From a virus, in the IMG/VR virus record IMGVR_UViG_3300037628_000424, positions 1 to 24,402 of that record: a stretch of DNA of 24,402 nt, one strand, 5' to 3'. Numbering within the stretch: the stretch's first letter is position 1; every line of letters starts with the position of its first letter. Positions 1,181 through 24,391 of the stretch are shown piece after piece. Below the pieces are notes generated by a model that saw nothing but the letters and a program-made list of their open reading frames with translations, was not told the DNA's origin and made no database searches. The translations under genes were made by a program, and so were the position numbers.

Positions 1181-1227
1181 GTCTAGCTTGAGCTTGCGAG
1201 TACAGACGTTTGTACGGGGAATGTTAG
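1169..1227 (+). repeat. Two copies of GGGGAATGTTAG (1169-1180, 1216-1227)
   Basis: The first copy provides the stop of the 971-1180 gene and the second lies in the intergenic gap. Between them is an imperfect palindrome, GTACAGACGTTTGTAC, at 1199-1214. Confidence 0.9.
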
Positions 1228-1242
1228 CCCCAGGTGGTGGAG

Positions 1243-1258
1243 TGTTTCATGTGAAACA
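1243..1258. promoter_or_regulatory. parS-like palindrome
   Basis: TGTTTCATGTGAAACA matches the chromosomal parS consensus TGTTTCACGTGAAACA at 15 of 16 positions. parS is the ParB/Spo0J loading site. It lies in a 90-bp gap just before the AGGAGG of the HAD gene. Alternatively it is an RNA hairpin (TGTTTC/GAAACA, 6 bp) next to that ribosome binding site. No ParA or ParB gene is visible in the window, so partition use would need one elsewhere on the element or from the host. Confidence 0.5.
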
Positions 1259-1270
1259 TAGGAGGATGAC

Positions 1271-1624: not shown

Positions 1625-1854
1625 GCGTTCCTCAGACACTACTCCTACTTCTGTCGAAGCTGTCTCAAATCAAGGGTTACGCCGAGGGGATGCAGGAGGG
1701 CTTCAGTATGGCCCACCCGGAGAATTTGGACACCGCCCTCCTCTCCGAACACATAAACAAGGGACTGGCCCATCTCAATAACTTGATCGACGAAGCCCTG
1801 AAAATCGAACAAGAGTTGAGACTGGAACTCAGACAACGAGGAGAATCAATATGA
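1621..1854 (+). CDS. Small helical protein, 77 aa
   Basis: GTG 1621 overlaps the HAD stop (GTGA) and the 3' end overlaps the next start (ATGA), which places it firmly in one translationally coupled operon. Nearly the whole sequence is predicted amphipathic helix (LLLLSKLSQIKG; LNNLIDEALKIEQELRLELR), so a coiled-coil or helical bundle is likely. The function is unknown. Confidence 0.78.
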   Translation: MSVPQTLLLLLSKLSQIKGYAEGMQEGFSMAHPENLDTALLSEHINKGLAHLNNLIDEALKIEQELRLELRQRGESI

Positions 1855-2150
1855 ATGACGAACAAGAGATTTGGTATGGATTCTGTACCTACTGGACCGA
1901 CGAGTGGGATAGTCTGTCGGCCACGGAACCAGTGGAGGGTGAGGCAATCAGTCACGGTATCCCTTGCTGCCCGGAGTGTGGGTCCGTGGGCTATCAGATG
2001 ACCCTCCAGGACTGGAACGAGGGTATCGAGAAGTACGAAGCTGAAGGTCACGCTGGCTACGCCGCATTTATTGAGGGACTGAAGGAACAATGCAACGGGA
2101 AGCTGACTATCATGGAACTCTGGAAGCAGAGGACCGAAGGGGAAGGTTAG
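1851..2150 (+). CDS. Zinc-ribbon-like hypothetical protein, 99 aa
   Basis: ATG 1851 is in an ATGA overlap and preceded by AACGAGGAGA. A CCPEC motif followed by GSVGYQM near residue 42 looks like half of a zinc knuckle; a partner Cys lies about 40 residues later. The protein is acidic and rich in Trp and Tyr. Its last codons come from GGGGAAGGTTAG, a one-base variant of the dispersed 12-mer, giving the ending Gly-Glu-Gly instead of Gly-Glu-Cys. Confidence 0.78.
   Translation: MNDEQEIWYGFCTYWTDEWDSLSATEPVEGEAISHGIPCCPECGSVGYQMTLQDWNEGIEKYEAEGHAGYAAFIEGLKEQCNGKLTIMELWKQRTEGEG
2139..2150 (+). repeat. Variant motif GGGGAAGGTTAG
   Basis: One base (T to G) differs from the 12-mer, and it again supplies the stop codon of the gene it closes. 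Confidence 0.65.
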
Positions 2151-2158
2151 AACTGATT

Positions 2159-2641
2159 TTGAATCGAGAACTCGATCTCTTTGAAAAGAACGATCCCAAT
2201 TTCGTTGATGATCTCAAGAAAAGCAACGATCACGTTTGGAAGGTAGCTAAATGGTTACAGGGGAAAGGGTACGCCGTAACGGTTTTGCCTCTCCGGATCC
2301 GGGAAAAGATCGAGGATATGTCTCAGTTCTCCGACTCGGGAGATATTGAGATCAGGCAGCGCATCGAAGTAAAGCAACGGTTCTTGGATTTCCATGATAA
2401 AAGCTCATATCCATTTCCGACAGTCATTGTTGATGTTGCCCATGCCTGGGATAACGCGAGACCCAAGCCCTTCGCCTATATCATCACCAATAAGAGTTCG
2501 TCCTGCTGCCTCATGGTGAAGGGAGATACCAGGAAGCACTGGTCAAGAGTTGAAAAGATGGACACAAAGAAGCATCGAATGAGGACGTTCTATGAATGTC
2601 CGATCGAATACTGTGAGTTTTTCAGAGTGGGGGAATGTTAG
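2159..2641 (+). CDS. PD-(D/E)xK-like nuclease candidate
   Basis: The frame is open from ATG 2090. The first 20 codons of that version overlap the previous gene out of frame and look non-protein-like, so I prefer TTG 2159 (MNRELDLFEK); the start is uncertain. With that start, residues 60-72 read SGDIEIRQRIEVK. An Asp followed eight residues later by E-V-K is the catalytic pattern of PD-(D/E)xK nucleases, and it is preceded by a helix (VWKVAKWLQGKGYAVTVLP) as in that fold. A cleavage role in DNA processing or host defence is inferred. The end is GEC-stop from the 12-mer. Confidence 0.68.
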   Translation: MNRELDLFEKNDPNFVDDLKKSNDHVWKVAKWLQGKGYAVTVLPLRIREKIEDMSQFSDSGDIEIRQRIEVKQRFLDFHDKSSYPFPTVIVDVAHAWDNARPKPFAYIITNKSSSCCLMVKGDTRKHWSRVEKMDTKKHRMRTFYECPIEYCEFFRVGEC

Positions 2642-2668
2642 GGCATCATGCCCGGTAGGGAGTGTTAG
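2630..2668 (+). repeat. Two motif copies (2630-2641 exact; 2657-2668 AGGGAGTGTTAG)
   Basis: The first copy closes the nuclease gene. The second lies 27 bp further in the intergenic gap. GGGCATCATGCCC (2641-2653) between them is a short inverted repeat. Confidence 0.88.
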
Positions 2669-2707
2669 CAGAAGGTTCTCCAATCGGGCAAAAACGCGGA
2701 GGGTATT

Positions 2708-2980
2708 ATGAAAAAAATCGTGATCGTCATGGACAGGGGGGTTATTGATGCGAGGTACGACGATGGGACCGTGCTGCGCCAAGGAGAGGATACCGCTTTC
2801 CTCGGTCGGCTGGAGATCAACATGAAGGCCCACGGGGATCTCATGCCCGACAATCAGATCCGGGGCTTCCTCAATACAGTCGTGCTGCCTCAACTCGATC
2901 TTTTCTCTCGCCAGATTGAGACTGAAGTGATTGAGGAAGAGGAAGTGGCTTTGGAAGCTGAAGTTGGTCCAGCACCGTAA
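2708..2980 (+). CDS. Hypothetical protein, 90 aa
   Basis: ATG 2708 follows CGGAGGGTATT. The N-terminus is a clear beta strand (KKIVIVMDRGVI), followed by DARYDDGTVL, and the C-terminal 15 residues are acidic and low in complexity (EVIEEEEVALEAEVG). I recognise no family. Confidence 0.8.
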   Translation: MKKIVIVMDRGVIDARYDDGTVLRQGEDTAFLGRLEINMKAHGDLMPDNQIRGFLNTVVLPQLDLFSRQIETEVIEEEEVALEAEVGPAP

Positions 2981-2987
2981 CAACTTT

Positions 2988-3260
2988 ATGGCTACCATAG
3001 AGCTTTTTTTAGAGGAGCCTGGGTTCATGGGTTTGTTTCTTTTCGTGATCGCGCAGCTGTGCATGATGGTCGCTGCGGGAGTCGTCGGTTACATCATCGG
3101 GAGACACTATGAAACGACCGAAGTTGCCGAAGCCAGCGGACAACATCGAAGTGGCCGAGATGGAATTGAAGGTCGAGAAGGGATGGAAGTTGAACCCCTC
3201 AGCCTCTCAGGGGGCCATGTTGCAGGAGATCCAGAGCCTTCTCGAGCGGATCAAGCGTGA
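2988..3260 (+). CDS. Single-span membrane protein overlapping the next gene
   Basis: ATG 2988 opens a 90-codon frame. Residues 13-38 form a strong transmembrane helix (FLFVIAQLCMMVAAGVVGYI) followed by GRHYE. The last 50 codons overlap the 3109-3333 gene in another frame and are of biased, non-globular composition, so only the first half may be under selection. The start lies 8 nt after the upstream stop, and the ribosome binding site is weak. A small phage membrane protein is plausible; a lysis role is possible but unsupported. Confidence 0.55.
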   Translation: MATIELFLEEPGFMGLFLFVIAQLCMMVAAGVVGYIIGRHYETTEVAEASGQHRSGRDGIEGREGMEVEPLSLSGGHVAGDPEPSRADQA

Positions 3261-3333
3261 CGACACGAAGATCCGCCAGCTTGAGGAAATGAAGCGGATC
3301 AACTGGAAGGAGAATCCCGAAGGGGAATGTTAG
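3109..3333 (+). CDS. Small coiled-coil-like protein ending GEC
   Basis: ATG 3109 follows GGGAGACACT. The 74-aa protein starts basic and Pro-rich (MKRPKLPKPAD) and then forms a long charged helix (MLQEIQSLLERIKRDD to IRQLEEMKRI) typical of a coiled coil. It ends NPEGEC-stop, using an exact 12-mer. It shares 152 nt with the membrane-protein frame upstream. Confidence 0.72.
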   Translation: MKRPKLPKPADNIEVAEMELKVEKGWKLNPSASQGAMLQEIQSLLERIKRDDTKIRQLEEMKRINWKENPEGEC

Positions 3334-3389
3334 TCCAGCACCTAATATGGGGAATGTTAGCTCGTGATCGCCGCCAGAGGGAATGTTAG
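3322..3389 (+). repeat. Three motif copies (3322, 3349, 3378)
   Basis: There are two exact copies and one AGGGAATGTTAG copy, spaced 27 and 29 bp. The first is the stop of the preceding gene and the others fill the 78-bp gap before the next ribosome binding site. Confidence 0.9.
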
Positions 3390-3411
3390 TGTGGAGCCAC
3401 CAGGAGGATGA

Positions 3412-3618
3412 ATGACCAACCCAGGCCCGATTTGGAAATGTGAGTGTAGCGAGTGCAACTGCGAAGAAGCTGCCATCAAAGAAGATTTCGATATTGACGC
3501 GATTTGCGGTCCCTGCGGCCGGGGTGTCCATAGAGCAGAGAGAGAGCACCAAGCCAGCCTGGAGACCCGGAAGCGGATCAAAGAGGAGGAGCAAAAGCTG
3601 AAGGACCGGGAGGACTGA
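3412..3618 (+). CDS. Cys-rich zinc-binding-type protein, 68 aa
   Basis: ATG 3412 is placed by CCAGGAGGATGA. Cysteines occur as C-x-C-x2-C-x-C near residues 10-16 (CECSECNC) and C-x2-C at about 34-37 (CGPCGRGVH), consistent with one structural zinc. The C-terminal third is a charged helix (RKRIKEEEQKLKDRED). The function is unknown. The stop overlaps the next start as TGATG. Confidence 0.8.
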   Translation: MTNPGPIWKCECSECNCEEAAIKEDFDIDAICGPCGRGVHRAEREHQASLETRKRIKEEEQKLKDRED

Positions 3619-4178
3619 TGAAGAACCTTAAAGAGTACCGATTCAGGGATAAGGCCGGTTGGGGGGAAGGCCCCTGGCAGAGCGAACCGGACAAGATGCA
3701 ATGGATCGACGAGGAAACCGACCTCGATTGCCTCATGGTTCGAGGTCCACACGGCTCCTGGTGCGGTTATGTCGGAGTGATGGATGGTCACCCCTTCTAT
3801 GAAAAAGCCTATAACAACGACTCAGAGCCGACGATGTATGACCTGGACGTGCATGGAGGGGTCACTTTCACCGACGTGTGTCAGGACCACAACAAGGAGC
3901 ATGGAGTGTGCCACGTCCCTGCGGCCGGCCGATCAGATCACGTCTGGTGGATCGGCTTCGATTGCGCCCACGCCTGGGACTGGTCACCCAAGTTCGATGG
4001 GGATCCGCTCGGCGTAATTCCAGCACCTAGTCTCGGGGCCAAGGCCCGACACCTGTCCGACGCTGTCGATTTCGGTGGAGGCTTTGAAACCACCTACAAG
4101 GACCTCGACTACGTCCAGCAGGAGATCCGGTCACTGGCGCAGCAGATCAAAGCGGTCTACGACAAGGCGGTGATGTGA
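3618..4178 (+). CDS. Conserved phage protein of unknown function (GFDCAH type)
   Basis: The 186-aa protein contains the signature string seen in a very common phage hypothetical family: GYVGVMDGHPFY near residue 51, a VHGGVTFTD segment at about 79, WWIGFDCAHAWDW at about 110 and a C-terminal TYKDLDYVQQEIRSLAQQ helix. The conserved His, Asp and Cys residues suggest metal binding or catalysis, but no activity is known to me. It is one of the best indicators that this window is phage-derived. It overlaps the next gene by GTGA. Confidence 0.88.
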   Translation: MKNLKEYRFRDKAGWGEGPWQSEPDKMQWIDEETDLDCLMVRGPHGSWCGYVGVMDGHPFYEKAYNNDSEPTMYDLDVHGGVTFTDVCQDHNKEHGVCHVPAAGRSDHVWWIGFDCAHAWDWSPKFDGDPLGVIPAPSLGAKARHLSDAVDFGGGFETTYKDLDYVQQEIRSLAQQIKAVYDKAVM

Positions 4179-4582
4179 GCTATTACGTCGAAGATTACTA
4201 TGAGGTCTATAACGAGAAAACGGTACGGGCACGCGTCGAGCATATCTGTGATGCCTGTACCGAAAAGATCTCCATTGGTCACCTCTACACTCGTATTGGC
4301 ATCATCTTCGAGAAGGTCGCGGAAACCATCAAACGGTGTCTCCGCTGCCAGACCATCCACGTTCACATTCGCGGCCTGGATACAGGCGGGGACAGCTGGC
4401 CTGACGAGAAACTGAATTGTGGAGAGAACTACAAGGATCATTGGGGGGTTGACCCTCCGGAGGAGATCCAAGACCTAGCCTTCGTCACTCCAGATGAGGC
4501 ACAGAAGGTCTGTGAGACTCAGATCTACGTCGAGACAATCAACCAGGTGGTCAGACACGCCAAGGAGAGAAGGCCGAAATGA
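4175..4582 (+). CDS. Zinc-finger protein, 135 aa
   Basis: GTG 4175 overlaps the upstream TGA. Residues 23-60 carry HICDACTEKISIGHLYTR then CLRCQTIHVHI. This C-x2-C, I-x-x-G-x-x-Y, C-x2-C layout is common in small phage zinc-ribbon proteins, where the hairpin binds one zinc. The remainder is acidic with a C-terminal helix (INQVVRHAKERRPK). DNA- or protein-binding is possible; no enzymatic motif is seen. Confidence 0.85.
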   Translation: MSYYVEDYYEVYNEKTVRARVEHICDACTEKISIGHLYTRIGIIFEKVAETIKRCLRCQTIHVHIRGLDTGGDSWPDEKLNCGENYKDHWGVDPPEEIQDLAFVTPDEAQKVCETQIYVETINQVVRHAKERRPK

Positions 4583-4785
4583 GCATCGTCTACAAGTGCG
4601 AGAACTGCGGATTGATCATCGAGGACAGCAGCGAGGTCTACTCCATCGGCAAGAGGCATTGGGACAACATCGACCTCTGTTGGGACTGCTTCATGATGGC
4701 CCTCAACCTGGGTGATGGGAAGTATTTCGGATGGATGGGAGTCAAGAAGCACGTTATGAAACTACTGAAGGCGGCTACAGGATGA
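4579..4785 (+). CDS. Small zinc-ribbon protein, 68 aa
   Basis: ATG 4579 is in an ATGA overlap and AGGAGAGAAGGCCGAA precedes it. It has CENCG at residues 7-11 and CWDC at 34-37, a complete two-knuckle zinc ribbon, plus a short amphipathic C-terminus (VKKHVMKLLKAATG). The function is unknown. Confidence 0.82.
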   Translation: MSIVYKCENCGLIIEDSSEVYSIGKRHWDNIDLCWDCFMMALNLGDGKYFGWMGVKKHVMKLLKAATG

Positions 4786-5066
4786 GAACGAACGGAAGCA
4801 ACCCAAAGATCACTATTGACGTTGGTGGAGTCGCTGGAGGAACAAGAAACGTCCCCGATCAGATGGTGGGGGTCCTGTTCTCCGGGGTAAAGGGTGGAGC
4901 TGGTCCAACTCCAGAGAAGGACGAACTGATCTCAAAATTGTTCAGGATGAAGATCCACGTCGGCTGCTGCGGGAAGGAGTACACCTTCGACTTCACAACC
5001 TTCCCCCGTGAGGACCTCAAATGCGACTGTGGAGCGAAGGGCCGTTGGGTGGTCAAGTATGAGTAA
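4782..5066 (+). CDS. Hypothetical protein with C-terminal Cys cluster
   Basis: I chose ATG 4782 because it overlaps the upstream TGA and has GAAGGCGGCTACAGG before it. The N-terminal 40 residues are Gly-rich and probably flexible (VGGVAGGTRN, GVKGGAGPTP). The C-terminal part has VGCCGKEY, a strand (TFDFTTFPRED) and CDCGAKGRW, giving four Cys for one metal site. I recognise no family. Confidence 0.78.
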   Translation: MRTNGSNPKITIDVGGVAGGTRNVPDQMVGVLFSGVKGGAGPTPEKDELISKLFRMKIHVGCCGKEYTFDFTTFPREDLKCDCGAKGRWVVKYE

Positions 5067-5454
5067 GAACGTCAGGCTCTACCGCTTCTACAATCTGGAC
5101 AAGGAGAAGCGTGGGGAACCCTTTGCTGAGTGTGACCACCACATCGAAGCATTCAAGCGCGGAAGGAAACCAGCTGCCCCTCAACTGATCCTGGAGAAGA
5201 TCGCGGACGAGGCCCTATGGTCGTGCAATAAGTGTGACCACGAAGAGGCCGAGAGAACGGAGCGGCTCCGTAATTTCAAGGACAGTAGGACACAGAAGGA
5301 CCCCGTCTGGAATGTCGTAGTCAGGAATAGAGAGAAGTCTGGGATAGGGGTAAGCGTCCAGTCCGATGCCTGGTCCTACCGCGAGGACCTCTCAGATATC
5401 GACCAAGTGACCTACGAGATCATTGCCAAGACGAGGCCAGTGAGGGAAGCATGA
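5059..5454 (+). CDS. Hypothetical protein, 131 aa, zinc-knuckle type
   Basis: ATG 5059 overlaps the previous gene by 8 nt. The sequence begins with a strand (NVRLYRFYN), then ECDHHIEAF and LWSCNKCDHEEAE, a plausible Cys/His metal site. The C-terminal half (VWNVVVRNREKSGIGVSV) is strand-rich. The function is unknown. It ends in an ATGA overlap. Confidence 0.78.
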   Translation: MSKNVRLYRFYNLDKEKRGEPFAECDHHIEAFKRGRKPAAPQLILEKIADEALWSCNKCDHEEAERTERLRNFKDSRTQKDPVWNVVVRNREKSGIGVSVQSDAWSYREDLSDIDQVTYEIIAKTRPVREA

Positions 5455-5711
5455 GCGAACGAGCCTTCAAGTCCACAGCTCACCTTGAGGAAGGCTGGCA
5501 CGTCGAGTGGACCGGCTGGAAGCTGTGTTCGTCCTGGCCGATGAAGATGGGGGCCTGGTGGGGTGTCGGCCCAGACAATAAAACCTTCATTCAGGCCCGA
5601 TGTTGGGTTGGGGATGAGGAGGAGGATAGCAGCGTCCTGGGCCACGCCAAAGATGAATCACGGCTCCGACTCAGAATGTATATCTACGAGTCGTCGAGAG
5701 GGGAGTGTTAG
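5451..5711 (+). CDS. Hypothetical Trp-rich protein ending GEC
   Basis: ATG 5451 is in an ATGA overlap. The 86-aa protein has six or more Trp residues (WHVEWTGWKL, WPMKMGAWWGVG) in a compact beta-like pattern. It ends SSRGEC-stop, where the tail and stop come from GGGGAGTGTTAG, the G variant of the 12-mer. Confidence 0.78.
   Translation: MSERAFKSTAHLEEGWHVEWTGWKLCSSWPMKMGAWWGVGPDNKTFIQARCWVGDEEEDSSVLGHAKDESRLRLRMYIYESSRGEC
5700..5711 (+). repeat. Motif copy GGGGAGTGTTAG
   Basis: This copy supplies the stop of the preceding gene and, through its GGGGAG, may be part of the ribosome binding site for ATG 5714 just after it. Confidence 0.85.
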
Positions 5712-5713
5712 GG

Positions 5714-5926
5714 ATGCCTTCAGCTTCACTCGGAGTCTGTCCAGTGGACGACAAACACCAGGTCACCCAGATCAGCGCGTCCAGGGAAGGCTATCTGGAA
5801 TACTGCTGCCAGTGCGCAAAATGGCGAACAAAGATCGACCTACGGCCCATCCGCGCCGAGTTGAGGGCAATGGGAGTCGATCCGGACGCGGGAGTGTTAG
5901 CAAAGCGTCAGTGTGGGGAATGTTAG
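5714..5926 (+). CDS. Small Cys-containing protein with two motif copies in its coding sequence
   Basis: The start is taken at ATG 5714, 2 nt after the motif; a GTG inside the motif (5705) is also in frame. The 70-aa product has a YCCQCAKW cysteine cluster near residue 32. Two copies of the dispersed motif lie in the last 40 nt. The first is read as Gly-Val-Leu-Ala and the second as Gly-Glu-Cys-stop, so the same DNA word is used in two reading frames within one gene. Confidence 0.7.
   Translation: MPSASLGVCPVDDKHQVTQISASREGYLEYCCQCAKWRTKIDLRPIRAELRAMGVDPDAGVLAKRQCGEC
5889..5926 (+). repeat. Two motif copies (CGGGAGTGTTAG 5889; exact 5915)
   Basis: The spacing is 26 bp; both lie inside the end of the 5714-5926 gene. 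Confidence 0.88.
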
Positions 5927-5939
5927 GACTAGATACGCC

Positions 5940-6149
5940 ATGAAACCAGCCTGGGTGAAGTGGATCATTGACACGTTCAAAACCGACGAGATGCGCTACG
6001 AGGTCAGAGCCACGAACGCAGAGGGAAAGGACTTTGTCGTCGGTTGGTCTTCGCTGCGCAGCGGGGGGACCCCTATGAGCATCGTCAAAGAGCATCCAGA
6101 CTGGCACTCGCCCATCGTTATTGACACTAAAGAGGGAGTATTGGGATGA
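5940..6149 (+). CDS. Hypothetical protein, 69 aa
   Basis: ATG 5940 follows a motif-derived stop by 14 nt with only a weak ribosome binding site. The protein reads MKPAWVKWIIDTFKTDEMRY onward, with a central strand pair (DFVVGWSSL) and PIVIDTKEGVLG at the end. The terminal AGGGAGTATTGG resembles a decayed copy of the 12-mer. It overlaps the next gene by ATGA. The function is unknown. Confidence 0.7.
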   Translation: MKPAWVKWIIDTFKTDEMRYEVRATNAEGKDFVVGWSSLRSGGTPMSIVKEHPDWHSPIVIDTKEGVLG

Positions 6150-6421
6150 CTGACGGAGATAGACCTCTCAACAACGATTGGGTCCTGGGACCCGAGCCAC
6201 TGGACCTCTGGGAAGCTGCCTTCTCCTGGGGCCGGGGGATGGAGCCGTACCGGGGGACACAGAGGGGGAATGTTAGATCCAGCAATACGGGGACTGTTAG
6301 ATCTCGACTGCCCAGATGCCCGTTCTGCGGTGCACCGACCAAATGGATCCGCGACAAGCTGTTCTGCCGCGATTGTGGCTACTTCGAGTCCTGCTGCGAC
6401 GGTGGGAAAGAGGCACTATGA
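6146..6421 (+). CDS. Zinc-ribbon protein with motif-encoded linker
   Basis: ATG 6146 is in an ATGA overlap. The 91-aa protein has a Trp-rich N-terminal part and a C-terminal zinc ribbon (CPFCGAP at about 58-64, CRDCGY at about 74-79). Between them, residues 41-53 read GNVRSSNTGTVRS, which is two dispersed motifs 24 bp apart read through in frame. The motif therefore sits at a domain boundary without breaking the gene. Confidence 0.78.
   Translation: MTDGDRPLNNDWVLGPEPLDLWEAAFSWGRGMEPYRGTQRGNVRSSNTGTVRSRLPRCPFCGAPTKWIRDKLFCRDCGYFESCCDGGKEAL
6265..6300 (+). repeat. Two motif copies (6265 exact; 6289 GGGGACTGTTAG) inside a gene
   Basis: The copies are 24 bp apart, which keeps the reading frame open. 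They encode GNVR and GTVR. Confidence 0.85.
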
Positions 6422-6645
6422 GCCAGATTGATGATGGATGGAGGGTACTGGACGAGATCCTGTTGAATCATCCGGGACAGGAGAACGGAGACAGGATGGG
6501 GGACGCGAAGAAGAGACAGCGCATGACCCGAGAGGAAATGAAGGTCATCCTGGATAAGCTGTTCAACATCACCGATGAGCTGTCTATCGAGGTCGTCTGG
6601 GAACACATGCTGGAGGTCTGGGCCAAGGCAGATGGGGAATGTTAG
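6418..6645 (+). CDS. Small helical protein, 75 aa, ending GEC
   Basis: ATG 6418 overlaps the upstream TGA with GGTGGGAAAGAGGC before it. The product is highly charged and helical (DAKKRQRMTREEMKVILDKL to ELSIEVVWEHMLEVWAKA). It is the last convincing gene before the long non-coding region, and its Gly-Glu-Cys-stop is the first motif of the densest array. Confidence 0.78.
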   Translation: MSQIDDGWRVLDEILLNHPGQENGDRMGDAKKRQRMTREEMKVILDKLFNITDELSIEVVWEHMLEVWAKADGEC

Positions 6646-6756
6646 AACGGTGTTCCCTGGGAATGTTAGATGGGGGCTTCAGTACGGGAATGTTAGGTGG
6701 ATTGAGGCTCCAGGTCGCAGAGGGAGTGTTAGGTACTGGATCTCCGGGAATGTTAG
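6634..6756 (+). repeat. Array of five motif copies
   Basis: Copies lie at 6634, 6658, 6685, 6721 and 6745, with steps of 24, 27, 36 and 24 bp. They differ only at base 1 and at the A/G of base 6. The first is the stop of the 6418-6645 gene; the others lie in its 3' flank. The array marks the end of the rightward operon. Confidence 0.92.
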
Positions 6757-6871
6757 CTCAGAAGAAGTGGAATATACAGAGAAAAGTGTATAAATACGAG
6801 ATCGGGAGGATAGAGAGAGTGTGGGTTAGGTGGGTAGTTTCCGGGTCAAATAAAAAAGATGGTCAAATAGC

Positions 6872-6919
6872 ATGCACCCTTGCACCATTTCGGGAGCCGG
6901 TTTGGTGAATAGGGTGCAT
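6872..6919. other. 48-nt symmetric hairpin / inverted repeat
   Basis: Arms ATGCACCCT (6872-6880) and AGGGTGCAT (6911-6919) pair perfectly. Inside them CACCA/TGGTG and CGG/CCG also pair, separated by small symmetric internal loops around a 3-nt tip. No T-run follows, so a simple terminator is unlikely. A cruciform, replication hairpin or large operator fits better. Confidence 0.7.
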
Positions 6920-6984
6920 AGTAAATCAGCAAAGTATTTGACTGACCCCGAAAACCCCCCTGTTTTGTTTTAGCTCGCTGAAAC

Positions 6985-7058
6985 ACCTTTCACCACCTTT
7001 CACCACCTTTCACCAAATTAGAGCCTGAGAAGAAAGGACTTACAGGATGGTGAAAGGT
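6985..7058. repeat. Iteron-like repeats: three tandem ACCTTTCACC plus one inverted
   Basis: Perfect 10-bp units start at 6985, 6995 and 7005, in phase with one helical turn. An exact inverted copy, GGTGAAAGGT, is at 7049-7058. Confidence 0.85.
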
Positions 7059-7196
7059 ACCCCCCCCACTCCCAAGACTTTAGTATAGGAAACCCGGAAA
7101 CCCTTTTAGAGATTTATAGAAAGAGTTATGACCCCCTTTCCTTGCACCCAATACATTTACACAGGATATCCTCTTGATAGAAAAGATCTTAACTCT

Positions 7197-7290
7197 GGTG
7201 AAAAGTGTCCAGGGACCTTTCACCACCTTTCACCACTTCCCTCTGAAGTCACTGAAAAAGAATGTCTTCTGGCTCCAGGGACCTTTCACC
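7197..7290. repeat. Second iteron cluster
   Basis: ACCTTTCACC units start at 7215 and 7225 and again at 7281, with a one-mismatch inverted copy at 7197-7206. The 7215 and 7281 units share the flank TCCAGGG, so a longer segment was duplicated. Confidence 0.82.
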
Positions 7291-7345
7291 ACTTATCCAG
7301 TTGCACACATGTTGTGCAGCAGCCTTCCAGTTCTTGCATAAAACC

Positions 7346-7573
7346 ATGAATGAGCGGAAGGATGGATTTAGTAAATTCTTCTCCAAACTCAGTATCAATT
7401 CCACTCACCCCGAGTCGGCGCCACTCTTCGATGAAGAACCGCCAGACTCATCTCCGCTGCCGCTGGCAGCAGCACACGAGGACCAATCAGTACAGGACCA
7501 GGCCGATCAACCCTTTGAAGAGGCTGTGCCTCTTGAAGATGAACTAGCCGACCTTCTGGAATCTATTGATTGA
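7346..7573 (+). CDS. Acidic, probably disordered protein, 75 aa
   Basis: I chose ATG 7346 because earlier in-frame starts lie inside the iteron region; its ribosome binding site is weak. The N-terminal 15 residues are basic and aromatic (MNERKDGFSKFFSKLS); the rest is acidic and rich in Pro, Ser, Asp and Gln (FDEEPPDSSP, FEEAVPLEDELADLLE). Such composition suits a protein-binding tail or regulator. It is the first gene of a three-gene overlapped cassette next to the iterons, so a role in replication or transcription control is inferred only from position. Confidence 0.7.
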   Translation: MNERKDGFSKFFSKLSINSTHPESAPLFDEEPPDSSPLPLAAAHEDQSVQDQADQPFEEAVPLEDELADLLESID

Positions 7574-7941
7574 AACCTCTTAGAGTTACTAACGCCGCCG
7601 CCTCTCACATCTTTACTGAGTGCTTCATTCAGTATGAAGTCTTGGGTGAGGCAGACCCTCGCTTACTGGCCGATGACCCACTTCTCCAAGACTTCGTTTT
7701 TGACTTCGATATCGTCGCTTCCCGGGTCCTCACTCCCGTAGAGCTCAAGTTATTCAAAATGAGGGCCAAGTACAGGATAAAACCAACCGATTGTCGTCAG
7801 ACGCTACAGCTCTCATGGGATGGCTATCGGCATATGAAGGAGCGGATCCGCATCAAACTCGGCCGCGGTCTCGTCCACTATCGTCTTTGGCCGCTGGAGA
7901 ACTACTTCAATGACAATCACGAAAAAAAGGTGAGCTTTTGA
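7570..7941 (+). CDS. Helix-turn-helix protein, sigma region 4-like
   Basis: The start is TTG 7570, overlapping the upstream TGA; no better start exists downstream. Residues 54-100 read VLTPVELKLFKMRAKY, then a Cys-containing helix and LSWDGYRHMKERIRIKLGRGL. An LTPxE start, a turn and a second helix ending IKLGRxL is the layout of sigma-70 region 4 and related DNA-binding modules. No region 2 is present, so it is not a complete sigma factor. It could be a transcription activator or a site-binding protein for the nearby repeats. The last residues (WPLENYFNDNHEKK) are a short polar tail. Confidence 0.7.
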   Translation: MKPLRVTNAAASHIFTECFIQYEVLGEADPRLLADDPLLQDFVFDFDIVASRVLTPVELKLFKMRAKYRIKPTDCRQTLQLSWDGYRHMKERIRIKLGRGLVHYRLWPLENYFNDNHEKKVSF

Positions 7942-8021
7942 CTTCTATTCGTCACCGGCTGCGGGTAAGATTCTCGCTGTGGTTTCAACGCCTTCTCTCT
8001 AAACTACTCTGGAGGATACTC

Positions 8022-8339
8022 ATGGTCGATGAAAAACCCGACCAGTCCCTTGTAAAGTCCGATCGCTCGGACCAGCTCCACGAGCAGCACGACGTTGACA
8101 GCCTCTCCCGTTTGATGCTTGAGCAAAAGGAGAGCTTTGATCGCAGCTTGCTCGAGGAGAGGCTTTTCAGCAATAAACTCAAAGGCTGGCTGGATCGGTA
8201 TTCCCGCATGAAAACCGATCACCGGATTATGGAAGACCAGTTAATGCAGGAAGCTGCCGTTCTCTTGGGGAACCCACCGCGACAGGCGGGCCCGGAGGAA
8301 ACCCCGGAAGCAGAACTGGTAGATCCTCCGGAGGAGTGA
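8022..8339 (+). CDS. Charged helical protein, 105 aa
   Basis: I favour ATG 8022, which follows GGAGGATACTC. A TTG at 7938, overlapping the previous stop behind AAAGGTGAGC, would add 28 basic hydrophobic residues and is a real alternative. The protein is mostly charged helix (SLSRLMLEQKESFDRSLLEERLF) with a coiled-coil look and an acidic Pro-rich tail. It is the last gene before the convergent junction. The function is unknown. Confidence 0.75.
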   Translation: MVDEKPDQSLVKSDRSDQLHEQHDVDSLSRLMLEQKESFDRSLLEERLFSNKLKGWLDRYSRMKTDHRIMEDQLMQEAAVLLGNPPRQAGPEETPEAELVDPPEE

Positions 8340-8384
8340 TACTCTCAGTGAGCCTTGCTAGGGTCTTGAGCCGTTCAGTCACGG

Positions 8385-8396
8385 TGGGAATGTTAG
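8385..8396 (+). repeat. Motif copy TGGGAATGTTAG at the convergent junction
   Basis: This lone copy is 46 nt past the stop of the last rightward gene, in the 123-bp gap between converging transcription units. No strong rho-independent terminator is visible there. Confidence 0.85.
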
Positions 8397-9565: not shown

Positions 9566-9997
9566 CTATCGTTTCGTTAATCTTTGGATGACGTGAGCCA
9601 GAAACGCAGCGCGTCTGCCTCCTTTTTGTCGAACATATAGAGATCTCAAAGCCTCCAGGTTCTCCTCTAGCTCCTTATAGGCTCCGGCCTTCTCAGCGCG
9701 TTCGGTGTCCAGTTGTATCGAGATGGCTCGATCATCGGCGGCAGCCTTCAGTCGTATCTCTTTATCCTCCGAGATATCCTGACCGAAAATATAGGCCGGG
9801 GAGCCGTGAACTATGATCCCGCCATCCTTCTCTCGCTTGACCTCGACTTCGTACAGGCTTCCAGGGGAACTCGCCGGGAGCTTCTTGAAGACTCGAAACT
9901 CTCCGTCTTCGTCCTGATAGGACTGGAAGAGAGTCTTCCCGTCCCTGATCCGCCCCATATATCTCCAGGTTTCCATCTTCGGTTTCTTTGGTTTCAT
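9566..9997 (-). CDS. Hypothetical protein, 143 aa
   Basis: ATG 9997 follows GAAAGGAGTGAT and overlaps the recombinase stop. The first half is strand-rich (ETWRYMGRIRDGKTLFQSY; LYEVEVKREKDGGIIVHG); the second is a long charged helix with a basic end (FLAHVIQRLTKR). It is translationally coupled to the serine recombinase, so it may be co-regulated with it, but no accessory-factor motif is visible. Confidence 0.78.
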   Translation of the reverse strand: MKPKKPKMETWRYMGRIRDGKTLFQSYQDEDGEFRVFKKLPASSPGSLYEVEVKREKDGGIIVHGSPAYIFGQDISEDKEIRLKAAADDRAISIQLDTERAEKAGAYKELEENLEALRSLYVRQKGGRRAAFLAHVIQRLTKR

Positions 9998-10578
9998 ATC
10001 ACTCCTTTCTCTTTCATCCTTCTGTGCAGCACAGTCTTGGAGACACCTACCAGTTCAGCGATCTTCCTCCAGGATTTCCCTTCGTGGCGCAGCACAATAG
10101 CCCAAGCCTCGTCGAACTGTGTCTCCCTGCGACCGAGTTGAGTACCGTTTCTCCTGGCTCTGTCCAGTCCAGCCAGTACTCGTTCGTTAATAAGCTCGCG
10201 CTCAAATTCGGCCATGATGCCTATTAACCCGAACATGGCCCTTCCCATCGGTGTTGACGTGTCCACCGCTTCCTGGTGTGAAACGAACTGGACCCCCAAT
10301 TCGCTGAACTCCCTCAAGGCAGAAACCAGATGGTGTAGGCTCCGCGCAAAGCGGTCGAACTTCCACACCATGACAATGTCGAATTTCCCCCGCTTCGCGT
10401 CTGCCATCATCCGATCCAGAGCCTCTCGGGACTCCTTGGTTCCGCTCACCCCTCGGTCAACGTACTCCTCGACGATCTCCCACTTGCGCCGTTTCGCCAT
10501 CTCCCGCAAGTCCTCCAACTGCATACCTTCGTCTTGGCGCACCGTTGAGATCCTTGCGTAAATCGCTGCGCGTTTCAT
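9994..10578 (-). CDS. Small serine recombinase (resolvase/invertase family)
   Basis: The start at 10578 (MKRAAIYARIST) overlaps the upstream TGA; earlier in-frame starts lie in the neighbour. At 194 aa it matches the usual size of resolvases and invertases. Visible are the nucleophile Ser11 in YARIST, GVSGTKESRE at 43-52, the catalytic DRFARS at 75-80, the hydrophobic E-helix AMFGLIGIMAEFERELINER (114-133) and a C-terminal helix-turn-helix (KSWRKIAELVGVSKTVLHRR, 168-187). Such enzymes resolve multimers, invert segments or move DNA by cutting both strands at short sites. I saw no obvious res or inversion site next to it. Confidence 0.95.
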   Translation of the reverse strand: MKRAAIYARISTVRQDEGMQLEDLREMAKRRKWEIVEEYVDRGVSGTKESREALDRMMADAKRGKFDIVMVWKFDRFARSLHHLVSALREFSELGVQFVSHQEAVDTSTPMGRAMFGLIGIMAEFERELINERVLAGLDRARRNGTQLGRRETQFDEAWAIVLRHEGKSWRKIAELVGVSKTVLHRRMKEKGVI

Positions 10579-15952: not shown

Positions 15953-16290
15953 CAGTCCTCCAATCCTGCTTCAAAGTAGGTTTCGGGGCCGTAGCTCAAC
16001 AGGTACTCGCGCCGGTTCTCCCGGTAGGTGTTCATGGGGTTCTCCCATGCCTCTGGCTCTGGTTCCTCTCCCTCAAACTCAAAATAGTCGTCGGCCAAGA
16101 TCGCGTTCAGGATCTCGTACACCCTGGCATCTTTTATGCCGATTGCGTCGGTGTACTGACAAGCGTAGTAGCTCACCCAATGGTCAACGTACTCGCTTCC
16201 TTCCTCCCCCGCGAAACGTGCCATATCCTGCAACGCTGTGTCGTGTTGCAAGTCTGACAGCACGTTCTTTTCATCTGGTTGTAAAATCAT
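15952..16290 (-). CDS. Hypothetical acidic protein, 112 aa
   Basis: ATG 16290 is preceded by GGAGGATAGGGA, the start-associated motif, which also contains the TAG of the upstream gene. The protein is helical and acidic, with many Tyr and Trp (HWVSYYACQYTDAIG; DYFEFEGEEPEPEAW). The strong negative charge could suit a DNA mimic, but many of its neighbours are also acidic. Confidence 0.78.
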   Translation of the reverse strand: MILQPDEKNVLSDLQHDTALQDMARFAGEEGSEYVDHWVSYYACQYTDAIGIKDARVYEILNAILADDYFEFEGEEPEPEAWENPMNTYRENRREYLLSYGPETYFEAGLED

Positions 16291-16293
16291 TCC

Positions 16294-16503
16294 CTATCCT
16301 CCCATCCCGTCAGCAATTTCTTTCAGGCCAGCTTCAACAGACGTGCTGATATTCTCCAGGGCATCAGCTACCCTCTCTGTGCTGGTGTACGCAGCGACTT
16401 CGTCAATCGACTTACTGACACTTTCGAGCGCGTCTGCTATCGCATACGCAGCATCGGTTATGTTGACCTCTCGCCCATTCCTCGTCGTTTCCCAAACTGT
16501 CAT
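16294..16503 (-). CDS. Helical hypothetical protein, 69 aa
   Basis: ATG 16503 is preceded by TTAGGAGGATAGGGA. The protein contains two similar helical segments, DAAYAIADALESVSKSIDEV and ERVADALENISTSVEAGLKE, suggesting an internal duplication or a dimeric bundle. Its stop TAG lies within the next gene's ribosome binding site. Confidence 0.78.
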   Translation of the reverse strand: MTVWETTRNGREVNITDAAYAIADALESVSKSIDEVAAYTSTERVADALENISTSVEAGLKEIADGMGG

Positions 16504-16514
16504 TCCCTATCCTC

Positions 16515-17141
16515 CTAAAATGCAAAGTTGGTTCTCGGATGCCTTACCTTCACTTGCCAGTGGCCGTTGGTATTCTCCCGCTCACAATCGCGCAGCTTGC
16601 CCCATGGATCTTTCAACACTAGCCCTTCGTCCTCTGGACTGGTGATCGCATGAAACACGCTCGTCAGTTCCTTCTTGATCGTCCTGGCTAACCAGACATT
16701 CCGCGAAGCCAAGTAGTGTGACCTTGCTTCGGCTGCAATAAACGGCTCTACCCGCTCATACAACACGCTCTGACGCTCCGTAAACGTCGAACCAAGGGCG
16801 TAGTGACCCTCCAACACAACGTAATCAAAGAGGTACAGCCGGTTCCTAATGTCCTTCACCTTGGAGTGGATTAACTCCCCTATCAACACGGTCCATGCCT
16901 TGCTTCCGAACATTTCCCAAAGCAACTGGACCGTTTCTGGTGGAGGCTCCCACTTCAGCGTGTCTTGGTGTCTGTTGAACCACTGGAAGGTCTGCTCGGG
17001 ACCGATGCCGATAACAGCACAGGTCCCGTTCTTCTTGAACTGACCAACCCACCCCCGCCGTTGATACATGCGTATCAAGTCGCACGTCACCGCCGACTCT
17101 GGCCGGGGGGGGAATAGATACCGCCACTCGCTGAAGCTCAT
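16515..17141 (-). CDS. Minimal ATP-dependent polynucleotide ligase (DNA/RNA ligase)
   Basis: The nucleotidyltransferase motifs are visible in order. Motif I is QFKKNGT with Lys36 in a K-x-N-G context, where a covalent AMP-lysine forms. A GEL segment with Glu89 and LYLFDYVVLEG (103-112) match motif III. DEGLVLKDP (171-179) is motif IV and WQVKVR (195-200) is motif V. At 208 aa it is essentially only the adenylation domain, with no OB-fold or DNA-binding extras, so it is among the shorter ligases. It would seal nicks, DNA or RNA, in phage replication or repair. It lies 3 nt after the 17145-17849 gene with a weak ribosome binding site, so coupling is likely. Confidence 0.85.
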   Translation of the reverse strand: MSFSEWRYLFPPRPESAVTCDLIRMYQRRGWVGQFKKNGTCAVIGIGPEQTFQWFNRHQDTLKWEPPPETVQLLWEMFGSKAWTVLIGELIHSKVKDIRNRLYLFDYVVLEGHYALGSTFTERQSVLYERVEPFIAAEARSHYLASRNVWLARTIKKELTSVFHAITSPEDEGLVLKDPWGKLRDCERENTNGHWQVKVRHPRTNFAF

Positions 17142-19514: not shown

Positions 19515-19553
19515 TTCCCTATCCTTTCCCGACTGGTTAGTACAGCCGACACA

Positions 19554-19576
19554 CCCCCGCGACGAAGTCGCGGGAG
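19554..19576 (-). other. Structured RNA element, hairpin A
   Basis: In leftward RNA there is a 10-bp stem (CUCCCGCGAC with GUCGCGGGGG, one G-U) and a 3-nt loop, followed by a GGCUGUACUAA-like flank and the start-associated ribosome binding site of the 19188-19514 gene. It is related to hairpins B and C. Confidence 0.72.
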
Positions 19577-19589
19577 CGGTTCTGCCATG

Positions 19590-19793
19590 CTAGACTTCGG
19601 TCCTTGCACAACACACGCAGACTCGCTGCGCCTTGATTGCTGGCCTGAAGTTAGTGCCACACTCGTGACACCAGTAACCGCGATAAAACGGTACTCCCTG
19701 GCCTTGACCCGGACGAAACAAGACAGCCTCGGCCAGTTGGCCGGTGTCCATCCTCGCTTGGTCCAGTGTGGGAAGCTGTGTTGATGTTCCCAT
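19590..19793 (-). CDS. Zinc-ribbon protein, 67 aa
   Basis: ATG 19793 follows GGAAAGGATAGGGAAACC. The first 35 residues are polar (LPTLDQARMDTGQLAEAV) and the C-terminal half has WCHECGTNF and VCVCCARTEV, a complete zinc ribbon. It is flanked by hairpins A and B. The function is unknown. Confidence 0.77.
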   Translation of the reverse strand: MGTSTQLPTLDQARMDTGQLAEAVLFRPGQGQGVPFYRGYWCHECGTNFRPAIKAQRVCVCCARTEV

Positions 19794-19811
19794 GGTTTCC
19801 CTATCCTTTCC

Positions 19812-19872
19812 GGCGGTCTACCGCCATTTGGCTACTCCGTGCAGCCACCACGCCCCGCGACAAGTCACGGAG
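19812..19872 (-). other. Structured RNA element, hairpin B (with second hairpin)
   Basis: The main stem is 19853-19861 with 19864-19872; the two C-A mismatches on the + strand become G-U pairs in leftward RNA. GGCUGCAC follows it. A second, perfect hairpin GGCGGTCTACCGCC (19812-19825) separates it from the ribosome binding site. Just upstream, GGGAGGATATCA precedes an ATG with a 3-codon frame (MYP) at 19894. Confidence 0.72.
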
Positions 19873-19908
19873 CGTTATTGCGTCACGGATACATTGATAT
19901 CCTCCCTT

Positions 19909-20939: not shown

Positions 20940-20977
20940 CCTATCCCCTTCCTGACTGCTTTAGTGCAGCCACACCC

Positions 20978-20998
20978 CCCCGCGACGGAGTCACGAAG
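20978..20998 (-). other. Structured RNA element, hairpin C
   Basis: A 9-bp stem in leftward RNA (CUUCGUGAC with GUCGCGGGG) has three G-U pairs, all C-A on the + strand, and a 3-nt loop. It is flanked by CACC/GGUG-type pairing and followed by GGCUGCACUAA. It stands 40 nt before ATG 20939. Confidence 0.75.
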
Positions 20999-21014
20999 CG
21001 GTGTTGCCACGCTG

Positions 21015-21365: not shown

Positions 21366-21790
21366 TATCTTCCCCCCTTCCAGTGGTCGCTATTGGCCGA
21401 AGTCTTGAAGACTCTGCAAGGGATCACCGCATTGATTCCATTGTGGGCCGTGTGGTAATCACGGTGGAAGAACCAGACCGATCCTAACCGCTGCTCTCCG
21501 GTGTCTTTCAGTTGATCGTGTTGGATGCAAGGCTCCAGTCCACCCGAGTAACTGAGGTATCCGTCACCGAAGTAGAAGCTACCGCCGATGGGACTGGTCT
21601 GTATTCCCATGCCTTCCTCCTTCCCCCAATCGTGTGAGAATCGGTGTGTGACACCATCGGCAAACTCGATATAATCCCCTACCCTTGCGCCTTCTCTTTT
21701 GTCCCACTGGTAGACCCGAGCGGTCAGAATATCGTGGTCCCTGTCGTCTGGTGTGATGTGTTGATCGTTCACAAAGTTGGCTCGAATCAT
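21365..21790 (-). CDS. Conserved phage-type hypothetical protein, 141 aa
   Basis: ATG 21790 follows AAGGGAGCCGAGT. The sequence (YQWDKREGARVGDYIEFADG, THRFSHDWG, GGSFYFGDGYLSYSGGLEP, CRVFKTSA) is beta-rich and has the look of a widespread phage and bacterial orphan family. No catalytic residues can be assigned. It overlaps both neighbours. Confidence 0.8.
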   Translation of the reverse strand: MIRANFVNDQHITPDDRDHDILTARVYQWDKREGARVGDYIEFADGVTHRFSHDWGKEEGMGIQTSPIGGSFYFGDGYLSYSGGLEPCIQHDQLKDTGEQRLGSVWFFHRDYHTAHNGINAVIPCRVFKTSANSDHWKGGR

Positions 21791-22044
21791 ACTCGGCTCC
21801 CTTCCATTGCCCAGTTATTCTCTCTCTGTTTCTTTTCCCATCGGTCAACGATGTAGAGGCCCAACTGTTGCGCGTTCGCCTTTGGCACGTCATAGGTGTA
21901 CCGCTGGACACGTCTGGGCTTTCTTCCTCTGGTCACGATTGAGTAGCGGTCAGTGTTCATGTATTGACGCAAGACCCAAAGGAATAAACGACCGATGATG
22001 TTGTTGGGGATCTTGGCAAACTGGACTGCTGGTGCTTTCTTCAT
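21787..22044 (-). CDS. Basic hypothetical protein, 85 aa, ending EGSRV
   Basis: ATG 22044 follows GAAGGGAGCCAAGT. It is a basic protein with FLWVLRQYMNTDRYSIVTRG, then GRKPRRVQRYTYDVPKA, which could bind nucleic acid. Its C-terminus EGSRV is produced by the repeated start-junction sequence of the next gene. Confidence 0.77.
   Translation of the reverse strand: MKKAPAVQFAKIPNNIIGRLFLWVLRQYMNTDRYSIVTRGRKPRRVQRYTYDVPKANAQQLGLYIVDRWEKKQRENNWAMEGSRV
21791..21806 (-). promoter_or_regulatory. Repeated translation junction, copy 3
   Basis: GAAGGGAGCCGAGT before ATG 21790. Copies also precede ATG 22044 and ATG 22331 (GAAGGGAGCCAAGT). Each serves as ribosome binding site and encodes the previous protein's EGS(Q/R)V end. 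Confidence 0.8.
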
Positions 22045-22331
22045 ACTTGGCTCCCTTCATTCACTTCCGTGGCACGTTCATACGCTTCCGAGAATGTAGT
22101 CAGTGACTCGCTCCCTGTCAGACTGGCGATCTTGCTGGAGAAGAGGATGCACACCGGATGCCGGTTCCTCTGGTCCGTGTCGAATCCCATTTCGCATAGC
22201 GTGTGCATGTGGCGAGCAAATGAGGAAACGACTCCCGAAAGATTGCAAGCGTCTTGGACTGCCATCGCGTCACGATACATGGGGGCTAACTTCTCCCTCA
22301 TTTCTGCCGGTGTCACTGTGTACTGATTCAT
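22041..22331 (-). CDS. Helical hypothetical protein, 96 aa, ending EGSQV
   Basis: ATG 22331 follows GAAGGGAGCCAAGT. It is a mostly helical protein (PAEMREKLAPMYRDAMAVQD; SFARHMHTLCEMGFD). Its ending EGSQV is encoded by the ribosome-binding junction of the next gene. No family is recognised. Confidence 0.78.
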   Translation of the reverse strand: MNQYTVTPAEMREKLAPMYRDAMAVQDACNLSGVVSSFARHMHTLCEMGFDTDQRNRHPVCILFSSKIASLTGSESLTTFSEAYERATEVNEGSQV

Positions 22332-22591
22332 ACTTGGCTCCCTTCTCCGTTCATTGTGTCCAGCGTTTCAGAGGCCCACTGTAAGCCAGTGGTGATCTGT
22401 CTCACTTCGTCGGCTGTCAGTCTGCCCAGCTTGGCAAACTTCCAAGAACCGTTCTTGGTGTTGCGTTCTCTTTTGATCTGGACCTTGGGTGTGCTTCCGT
22501 TGTACTGATAAATCCCGACCGTCAATCTGACCCCACCCACGGAGTAGACTTCCTTGGTTGCGATTTCTTTGTCTAGGCTTTCGTCAAACAT
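22328..22591 (-). CDS. Hypothetical protein, 87 aa, ending EGSQV
   Basis: The start at 22591 (MFDESLDKEI) follows GAAGGATAGGGAATCA, the start-associated motif. Strands GGVRLTVGIYQYN and KVQIKRERN are followed by a helical end (LTADEVRQITTGLQWASETL). Hairpin E stands upstream. The function is unknown. Confidence 0.78.
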   Translation of the reverse strand: MFDESLDKEIATKEVYSVGGVRLTVGIYQYNGSTPKVQIKRERNTKNGSWKFAKLGRLTADEVRQITTGLQWASETLDTMNGEGSQV

Positions 22592-22624
22592 TGATTCCCT
22601 ATCCTTCTCCCTACCTTGCGCTCG

Positions 22625-23718: not shown

Positions 23719-23877
23719 ATGAAAGTGGTCAAGGAGGCCAAAATCCGTGAGATTCAGCGTGAACTTGTGAAGGCGGAGGACAACTTCAGGAAGGCGACGG
23801 TGTTCCTGGGCCACGCCCGGGAGATGCTGTCAGCGGTGTCGGGGAATGTTAGACATACACCCAGGCGGGAGTGTTAG
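23719..23877 (+). CDS. Small helical protein, 52 aa, ending REC
   Basis: ATG 23719 follows AGGGGGACTAG, with GGAGGAGAGG further up. The product is a charged helix (AKIREIQRELVKAEDNFRKA) then a short hydrophobic part. Near the C-terminus SGNVRH comes from an exact dispersed 12-mer read in frame, and the end Arg-Glu-Cys-stop comes from a second copy 25 bp later. The frame is short, but the motif usage matches the other genes here. Confidence 0.65.
   Translation: MKVVKEAKIREIQRELVKAEDNFRKATVFLGHAREMLSAVSGNVRHTPRREC
23841..23877 (+). repeat. Two motif copies (23841 exact; 23866 CGGGAGTGTTAG)
   Basis: Spacing 25 bp. The first copy is internal to the 52-aa gene and the second provides its stop. 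Confidence 0.88.
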
Positions 23878-23925
23878 ATAAGAGCGTGTCAGGCCCACCA
23901 AAATTTTTTATGAGGGGGTGAGAGA

Positions 23926-24168
23926 ATGGGCGAACAGACTGAGGAGCAGAAGTGGAGTCCGACGATAGCGAGGTACAGCTTGGGACCGAACGTGATGGTG
24001 GTAGCGCGGACGCGGATCGAGGGGGCATGGTCGGCTTACTGTGCAGCGGTGCAGGGCCAGTCGATCTCGCATGATGAGAAGTTCACGTTGGACAACGGAA
24101 CGAAGCTGCCCGAGAAGATAGCGAGGGCGATCTTCGAGCAGTTCGAGGAACTGAAATACGTTTCTTGA
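23926..24168 (+). CDS. Hypothetical protein, 80 aa
   Basis: ATG 23926 follows GAGGGGGTGAGAGA. The protein has a beta segment (NVMVVARTRIEG), a middle helix and an acidic C-terminal helix (PEKIARAIFEQFEELKYVS). The next motif copy lies 2 nt after its stop. The function is unknown. Confidence 0.8.
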   Translation: MGEQTEEQKWSPTIARYSLGPNVMVVARTRIEGAWSAYCAAVQGQSISHDEKFTLDNGTKLPEKIARAIFEQFEELKYVS

Positions 24169-24170
24169 TT

Positions 24171-24182
24171 GGGGATTGTTAG
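24171..24182 (+). repeat. Variant motif GGGGATTGTTAG
   Basis: One-base variant, placed immediately after a gene's stop codon. Confidence 0.72.
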
Positions 24183-24207
24183 CATACGCAGCGCAGATTG
24201 ACCCGTA

Positions 24208-24360
24208 ATGATGGAATTGATCTTGCTGGCGATGGTAGTTGTTTTTTTCGGAGCGGCGTTGACGAAAGCGTTCAAGTTCGCCCTGGGCCTCGCGCGGGCT
24301 AAACCCCACCATACCCCTCAATGTGGGCGCGGCCGGGGCGATTCAGTGAGGGAATGTTAG
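24208..24360 (+). CDS. Small membrane protein, 50 aa, ending REC
   Basis: The start is ATG 24208 or 24211 with a weak ribosome binding site. Residues 3-18 are a transmembrane helix (ELILLAMVVVFFGAAL), followed by a basic part (TKAFKFALGLARAK) and a Gly/Arg-rich end. Arg-Glu-Cys-stop is supplied by AGGGAATGTTAG. Hydrophobicity and the motif-derived stop support it. Confidence 0.6.
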   Translation: MMELILLAMVVVFFGAALTKAFKFALGLARAKPHHTPQCGRGRGDSVREC

Positions 24361-24391
24361 ATGTGCACCTACTCGGCTCGGGGAATGTTAG
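24349..24391 (+). repeat. Two motif copies (24349 AGGGAATGTTAG; 24380 exact)
   Basis: Spacing 31 bp. The first closes the 50-aa gene and the second lies in the gap that runs off the window. Confidence 0.88.

Follow-up and report, generated by a model that had tools for sequence, protein, structure and literature searches.

In a 24.4-kb virus record (the window, that is, the whole stretch of DNA that was analysed), the 18-base joint GAAGGGAGCC(A/G)AGTATGA links four consecutive minus-strand genes, g1-g2-g3-g4, and related records carry these genes in different arrangements. Judging from the sequences compared, cassette-like gain, loss, and reordering of genes at identical joints appears well supported for this locus. 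We assign a probability of about 0.6 to the reading that homology at the joint caused the changes at g1-g4 and the change at a second place in the window, where a 69-aa gene lies between two copies of another word.

Source of the window and its relatives

Genes in the window were called with a simple script, supplemented manually with a few starts. Scanning a viral collection yielded a 108-kb record, 3300024521_000001 (G001), a 14.2-kb record, 3300037247_000714 (G002), a 15.9-kb record, 3300022707_002346 (G003), and two distant fragments, 3300020234_000197 (G004) and 3300023284_001479 (G005). Since the alignment of the window spans both ends of G001, we read the latter as circular or terminally repeated. 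Family searches showed that G001 encodes SbcC-like and exonuclease proteins and, above the Pfam cut-off, an SU10-type adaptor; portal-like matches were obtained below the cut-off. Because of the adaptor and the portal-like matches, we take the window to be a portion of a tailed phage genome.

A nucleotide search of the whole window against a phage collection gave no match, nor did a protein search with one G001 protein as the query, and a search of genome contigs with the g4 alignment returned no relative. Exact-pattern scans of viral contigs returned L006 and seven of the eight records of one scan, each with one copy. L006 looks unrelated, as judged from the region around its match, and the other seven single-copy records were treated likewise. 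Only four records carry the joint, namely the window, G001, G002, and G003.

The joint between g1, g2, g3, and g4

The window was searched for GAAGGGAGCCAAGTATGA with up to three mismatches, and exactly three matches were found, all on the minus strand, where 0.02 were expected by chance (Table 1); none of 100 shuffled sequences reached three matches. The sequence-only reading had placed one junction at the starts 21790, 22044, and 22331 and had claimed that the same bases provide the ribosome binding site (RBS) and start of the next gene as well as the end of the previous protein, EGS(Q/R)V. Both claims were borne out, the first by the three matches and the second by the sequence of each joint, which contains the last codons of the upstream protein, the stop codon, the RBS, and the next start codon, with ATGA forming a 4-base stop/start overlap. 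The C-termini upstream of the joints read EGSQV, EGSQV, and EGSRV, and the proteins are otherwise unrelated. None of g1, g2, g3, and g4 had a Pfam or PHROGs match at E 0.01.

The 39 called NTGA starts of the window form 741 pairs. Agreement at 13 or 14 of the 14 preceding bases was seen in just four of these, namely the three pairs of g1-g4 joints and one pair at the second word, AGGATAGGGAA (16290/16503). As read from these bases, the joint exceeds the length that an RBS needs. In G001, the full joint is found only at three orthologous, adjacent places and nowhere else across 108 kb. We regard it as practically certain from the sequence that the joint is a gene-to-gene joint within an operon of small phage genes.

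Table 1. Positions of the joints, words, and genes in the window.
Feature	Positions	Strand	Remarks
g1, 87 aa	22328..22591	-	diverged allele (68% aa) in G003
g2, 96 aa	22041..22331	-	missing in G003; diverged homologue g2' after g3 in G002
g3, 85 aa	21787..22044	-	
g4, 141 aa	21365..21790	-	also in G004 and G005, joint absent there
Joint J1, GAAGGGAGCCAAGTATGA	22328..22345	-	g1 end EGSQV*, RBS and g2 start; exact match (0 mismatches)
Joint J2, GAAGGGAGCCAAGTATGA	22041..22058	-	g2 end EGSQV*, RBS and g3 start; exact match (0 mismatches)
Joint J3, GAAGGGAGCCGAGTATGA	21787..21804	-	g3 end EGSRV*, RBS and g4 start; one mismatch to GAAGGGAGCCAAGTATGA (A to G, position 11)
AGGATAGGGAA copy	22595..22605	-	just upstream of g1 (start 22591); identity step of the G003 g1 allele begins nearby
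GGAGGATAGGGAATGA copy	16500..16515	-	start of the 69-aa cassette gene
69-aa gene	16294..16503	-	between two GGAGGATAGGGAATGA copies
GGAGGATAGGGAATGA copy	16287..16302	-	where the 69-aa gene ends and its downstream neighbour starts (16290)

Gene arrangements in the relatives

The order g1-g2-g3-g4 is found in the window and in G001, whose three joints are identical to those of the window. G002 has the order g1-g3-g2'-g4, all three boundaries matching the joint at all but 0-2 bases, and its g2' is 64% identical to g2 in amino acids over the alignment and about 76% in nucleotides. G003 has the order g1-g3-g4 and lacks g2; the joints between g1 and g3 and between g3 and g4 are GAAGGGAGCAAAGTATGA and GAAGGGAGCAGAGTATGA, respectively. 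That is, the check proposed by the sequence-only reading, namely to look in relatives for changes exactly at the junction, found changes exactly between copies of the joint in the loss of g2 (G003) and in the swap of g2' and g3 (G002). By the identity of g4, G003 is the most diverged of G001, G002, and G003 (about 91% vs 96%).

Since g2 is missing in G003 and g2 and g2' occupy two different joints, one simple reading would be two separate gains of related g2/g2' cassettes; another would be one loss and one move of g2. The distinct allele represented by g2' and the variant peculiar to the G003 joints make an assembly error unlikely. The two ends concerned in the g2 loss match at 19 bases, and a match as good was reached by a fraction of 0.003 of the 666 pairs of minus-strand starts in the window and of 0.0003 of 3000 random position pairs.

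All 11 joints in the four records keep GGGAGC and TATGA, differ from J1 of the window at no more than 2 of 18 bases, and are embedded in unrelated flanks. Position 11 is A after g1 in all four records and G after g3 in all four; it thus tracks the upstream gene, indicating that the left part of the joint moves together with this gene. Both G003 joints carry C-to-A at position 10, which is a weak hint that the joints of one genome may be kept alike.

Steps in identity were located using a change-point fit, and the positions given here are those of each comparison. Between the window and G003, identity changed from 70% to 90% at 518 (support 514-532), where the joint is located at 520-537. The fit put the upstream end of the diverged G003 allele of g1 at 295 (support 271-324), with the g1 start at 274 and AGGATAGGGAA at 260. 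When g2/g4 of the window was compared with G002, the step was at 271 (support 269-308) and the joint at 269-286; when g1/g3 was compared with G002, the step was about 110 bases within g3 (527, support 486-527) and the joint at 400-417. The steps between the window and G001 were broad and unplaced. A step in or beside the joint was therefore seen in two comparisons (the g1 allele of G003 and g2/g4 with G002).

A gene whose product begins with MKRQKPREITVDEAL or MKQKPKEITVDEAL (L011 535-753; L026 from 806) lies upstream of g4 in one distant relative and downstream of it in the other, so that reordering near g4 extends across the wider group.

A second word and the 69-aa gene

A separate, second junction word had also been claimed from the sequence alone, and this proved correct: AGGATAGGGAA is present in eight minus-strand copies in the window with at most one mismatch, where 0.51 were expected. 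With the 69-aa gene as the query, no tblastn match was obtained in the available sequence of five relatives, and in all five, one copy of the word links the neighbours of this gene, with G004 and G005 sharing AGGATAGGGAATGA. The comparison with relatives hence agreed with the claim at the second word as well; gain of the 69-aa gene in the window lineage would be the simplest reading of this empty site.

In addition, an intergenic repeat of ~75 bases, ACACCGCTTCGTGAC..GTCGCGGGG..GTGGCTGCACTA, was observed on the minus strand at about 20950-21013, 19810-19888, and 19518-19592, upstream of the starts 20939, 19793, and 19514. It ends in or near AGGATAGGGAA and recurs in the relatives.

Proposed mechanism

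Several joints show identity over 16-19 bases, and a gene together with one joint may therefore act as a cassette. Translation would be coupled across the joint. A joint could pair homologously with another joint, in the same genome or in a co-infecting phage, and the pairing would insert, remove, or move the cassette while all reading frames and RBSs stay intact. We infer recombination itself from its end states, and pairing and exchange from the three arrangements and the identity steps at the joints. For RecA recombination, a stretch of 16-19 bases is short. Recombination of the annealing type, acting on short homology, may be involved, and the SbcC-like and exonuclease proteins of G001 could support it. 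The ERF, RecT, Rad52, and AAA_24 families (the last of which we take to be Sak4-type) were each found in none of the five records, which are mostly fragments and in which remote homologues could escape.

Other gains, losses, and moves

Because viable swaps must break near gene ends, breakpoints at joints would be partly expected without any targeting. Untargeted (illegitimate) recombination combined with selection would account for the locus if only exchanges at gene ends survive and the joints are alike owing to a strong RBS and the stop/start overlap. Phage mosaicism is explained in PMC3233612 by either of two models; the first invokes homologous recombination at boundary sequences that are short and conserved, and the second, which corresponds to the present one, random illegitimate recombination and selection.

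We assessed 16 gain/loss comparisons, chosen by hand because the difference was clean and one-sided; one gene that is missing in two relatives accounts for two of them, and differences with other DNA on both sides, as well as permutations, were left out. At least 17 matching bases at both ends were found in 2 of the 16 comparisons (g2 and the 69-aa gene). One comparison had 11 matching bases, at the word GGGAATGTTAG, one had 10, shifted off the breakpoint, and the remaining 12 had 9 or fewer; for 666 start pairs used as the null, the median was 8 and the 99th percentile was 17. That most other gains and losses in these genomes lack a long end repeat speaks for untargeted recombination, as does the relocation of the MTFEGM gene in G003, where the new joints share only about 4-6 bases. 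When rearrangement was judged by eye, about 3 of 5 repeat-flanked genes and about 10 of 31 others were rearranged, and we claim no enrichment.

The identity of the joint, however, is longer than an RBS needs, and no other NTGA pair agrees at 13 or more of 14 bases apart from one pair at the second word. Moreover, the new joints of the G002 swap all remain the joint, whereas untargeted breaks should have altered at least one of them, as with the MTFEGM gene. We consider untargeted recombination a somewhat unlikely explanation of the g1-g4 and 69-aa gene changes.

The sequence-only reading held that cassettes were added by recombination at identical joints and named gene-order changes unrelated to the joints as evidence to the contrary. 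Such changes were found elsewhere in these genomes, for the MTFEGM gene and in 12 of the 16 comparisons. The comparisons favour the claim at g1-g4 and at the 69-aa gene, and it is not a general rule; from these sequences, identical joints appear to be one route of gene exchange and not the sole one.

In the window, the MTFEGM gene (14096-13905) precedes the MSELEI gene, and in L020 (12522-12686) it is located between the MENVGK and MKHNV genes; its breakpoints fall at start codons, with almost no common joint sequence. Gene order also differs between 5451-6149 of the window and G001 (L014 2048-3143), in the placing of the MSERA gene relative to the SLGVCP and MKPAWV genes, and GGGA(A/G)TGTTAG is found near several of these breakpoints.

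Regulatory element, recombinase site, or duplication

The joint could also be a start-associated regulatory element, with a phage or host factor acting on the word at the translation start and the shuffling being incidental. An element of this kind is described in PMC3203893, in which the SAS of cluster K mycobacteriophages is a short asymmetric repeat just upstream of the ATG of non-structural genes, in one orientation and with 11-19 copies spread across the non-structural half of the genome; the action of a factor at the translation start has been proposed for SAS. The joint is likewise placed a few bases upstream of starts in a single orientation and extends past the RBS, which favours regulation, as does the C-to-A change at position 10 of both G003 joints, as if they were kept alike. 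The joint nevertheless differs from SAS in its sequence, in having three clustered copies vs 11-19, and in overlapping upstream coding sequence. The SAS word GGGATAGGAGCCC, with at most two mismatches, had no match in the window, where 0.67 were expected, and its five matches in the relatives were scattered, had two mismatches, and were at none of these joints. Membership in SAS was rejected on sequence and copy number. A regulon would be expected to have more than the three full copies, all adjacent, of the 108-kb G001; at g4 of G004 and G005, the word is missing; and the position-10 change affects a single site in each of two joints. A regulatory role as the explanation is thus improbable in our estimation, and it would be compatible with recombination at the word.

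Integron cassettes consist of a gene and a boundary that are inserted, lost, and reordered, and the joint resembles them in gain, loss, and reordering, that is, at most in how it would work. Among 10 window proteins scanned against Pfam and PHROGs, the only recombinase was a serine recombinase (9994-10578, minus strand; Pfam Resolvase E 9.4e-47; PHROGs DNA invertase), which is conserved at 98-99% in two relatives and at 68% in a third. It is small and lies in the same gene block, and its conservation in three relatives would suit a joint that serves as the site of this or another recombinase in an integron-like manner. The joint, however, shows no palindrome by eye, both the joint and AGGATAGGGAA, which are unrelated words, would need to be sites, and G004 has the recombinase (68% aa) yet no such joint at g4; site-specific recombination is very improbable. 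Least credible is tandem duplication, in which g1, g2, and g3 would be diverged copies of one gene with inherited ends: it is suggested by the adjacency, small and similar size, and common C-terminus of the three genes and was rejected as the origin of the common ends because BLASTP revealed no convincing similarity beyond the tail (g2/g3, none; g1/g2, the six-residue tail only, E 0.29; g1/g3, nothing noteworthy, E 0.94).

Comparison with boundary sequences and PeSLs

The preferred reading, homology at the joint, has a precedent in the boundary (linker) sequences of which lambdoid phages provide examples. As here, a short identical sequence lies between genes where modules are exchanged, and homologous recombination is invoked. 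An identical short sequence was found at 11 joints in four records, and the arrangements differ exactly there. In contrast to boundary sequences, the joint lies in coding sequence, its 18 bases comprising C-terminus, stop, RBS, and start. A single boundary also recurs from gene to gene along an operon of small genes, which makes present, absent, and permuted states all visible. On the sequences, we regard the joint as a new example of the known reshuffling at boundary sequences, with coding joints as its particular feature.

PeSLs are said to be promoter/stem-loop cassettes of T4-type phages (work attributed to Arbiol, 2010, and Comeau, 2014). Similar to the joint, a PeSL is a repeated sequence between genes that is said to mediate shuffling; a PeSL consists of a promoter and a stem-loop, whereas the joint is a translation junction in an operon, within overlapping genes. 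PeSLs may have a nearer counterpart in the longer intergenic element that ends in AGGATAGGGAA. In PMC4503421, PeSLs are cited as mediating gene shuffling in T4-like phages.

Whether phage gene order is reshuffled at boundaries through targeted homology or through random breaks and selection is an old question. A repeated 18-base word whose relatives show present, absent, and permuted states, together with the empty site at the second word in five of five relatives, makes the targeted model testable, provided that a phage of this group can be cultured. It is doubtful that the start-site words GAAGGGAGCC..ATGA, AGGATAGGGAA, and GGGAATGTTAG form a general cassette system without a recombinase, in which they would be expression signals as well as interchangeable homologous joints. 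If this were true, any small gene with the right ends could enter, leave, or move along accessory operons, leaving its neighbours unharmed.

Other repeated words

GGGAATGTTAG is present in 24 copies in the window with at most one mismatch, all on the plus strand, where 0.35 were expected. The copies are located at 1170-8396 and 23842-24391, many of them tandemly arranged at intervals of 24-36 bases, the spacers being variable (e.g., 6635, 6659, 6686, 6722, and 6746). The word often closes a protein as ..EC* and is also intergenic, and many copies are found on one strand in G001. Two distant genes of G001 (L015 start 12546 and L018 start 10858) have 13 of 14 pre-start bases in common, CAGACGCCTGTAC, which is possibly another joint word. 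Upstream of the starts 22851 and 18220, a near-palindrome, ATGGTCATACGATCATGG, is found on the minus strand and resembles an operator or a shared promoter region. Lastly, ACCTTTCACCACC repeats are clustered on the plus strand at 6978-7297 of the window, where few genes were called; this stretch is possibly an origin or a regulatory region.
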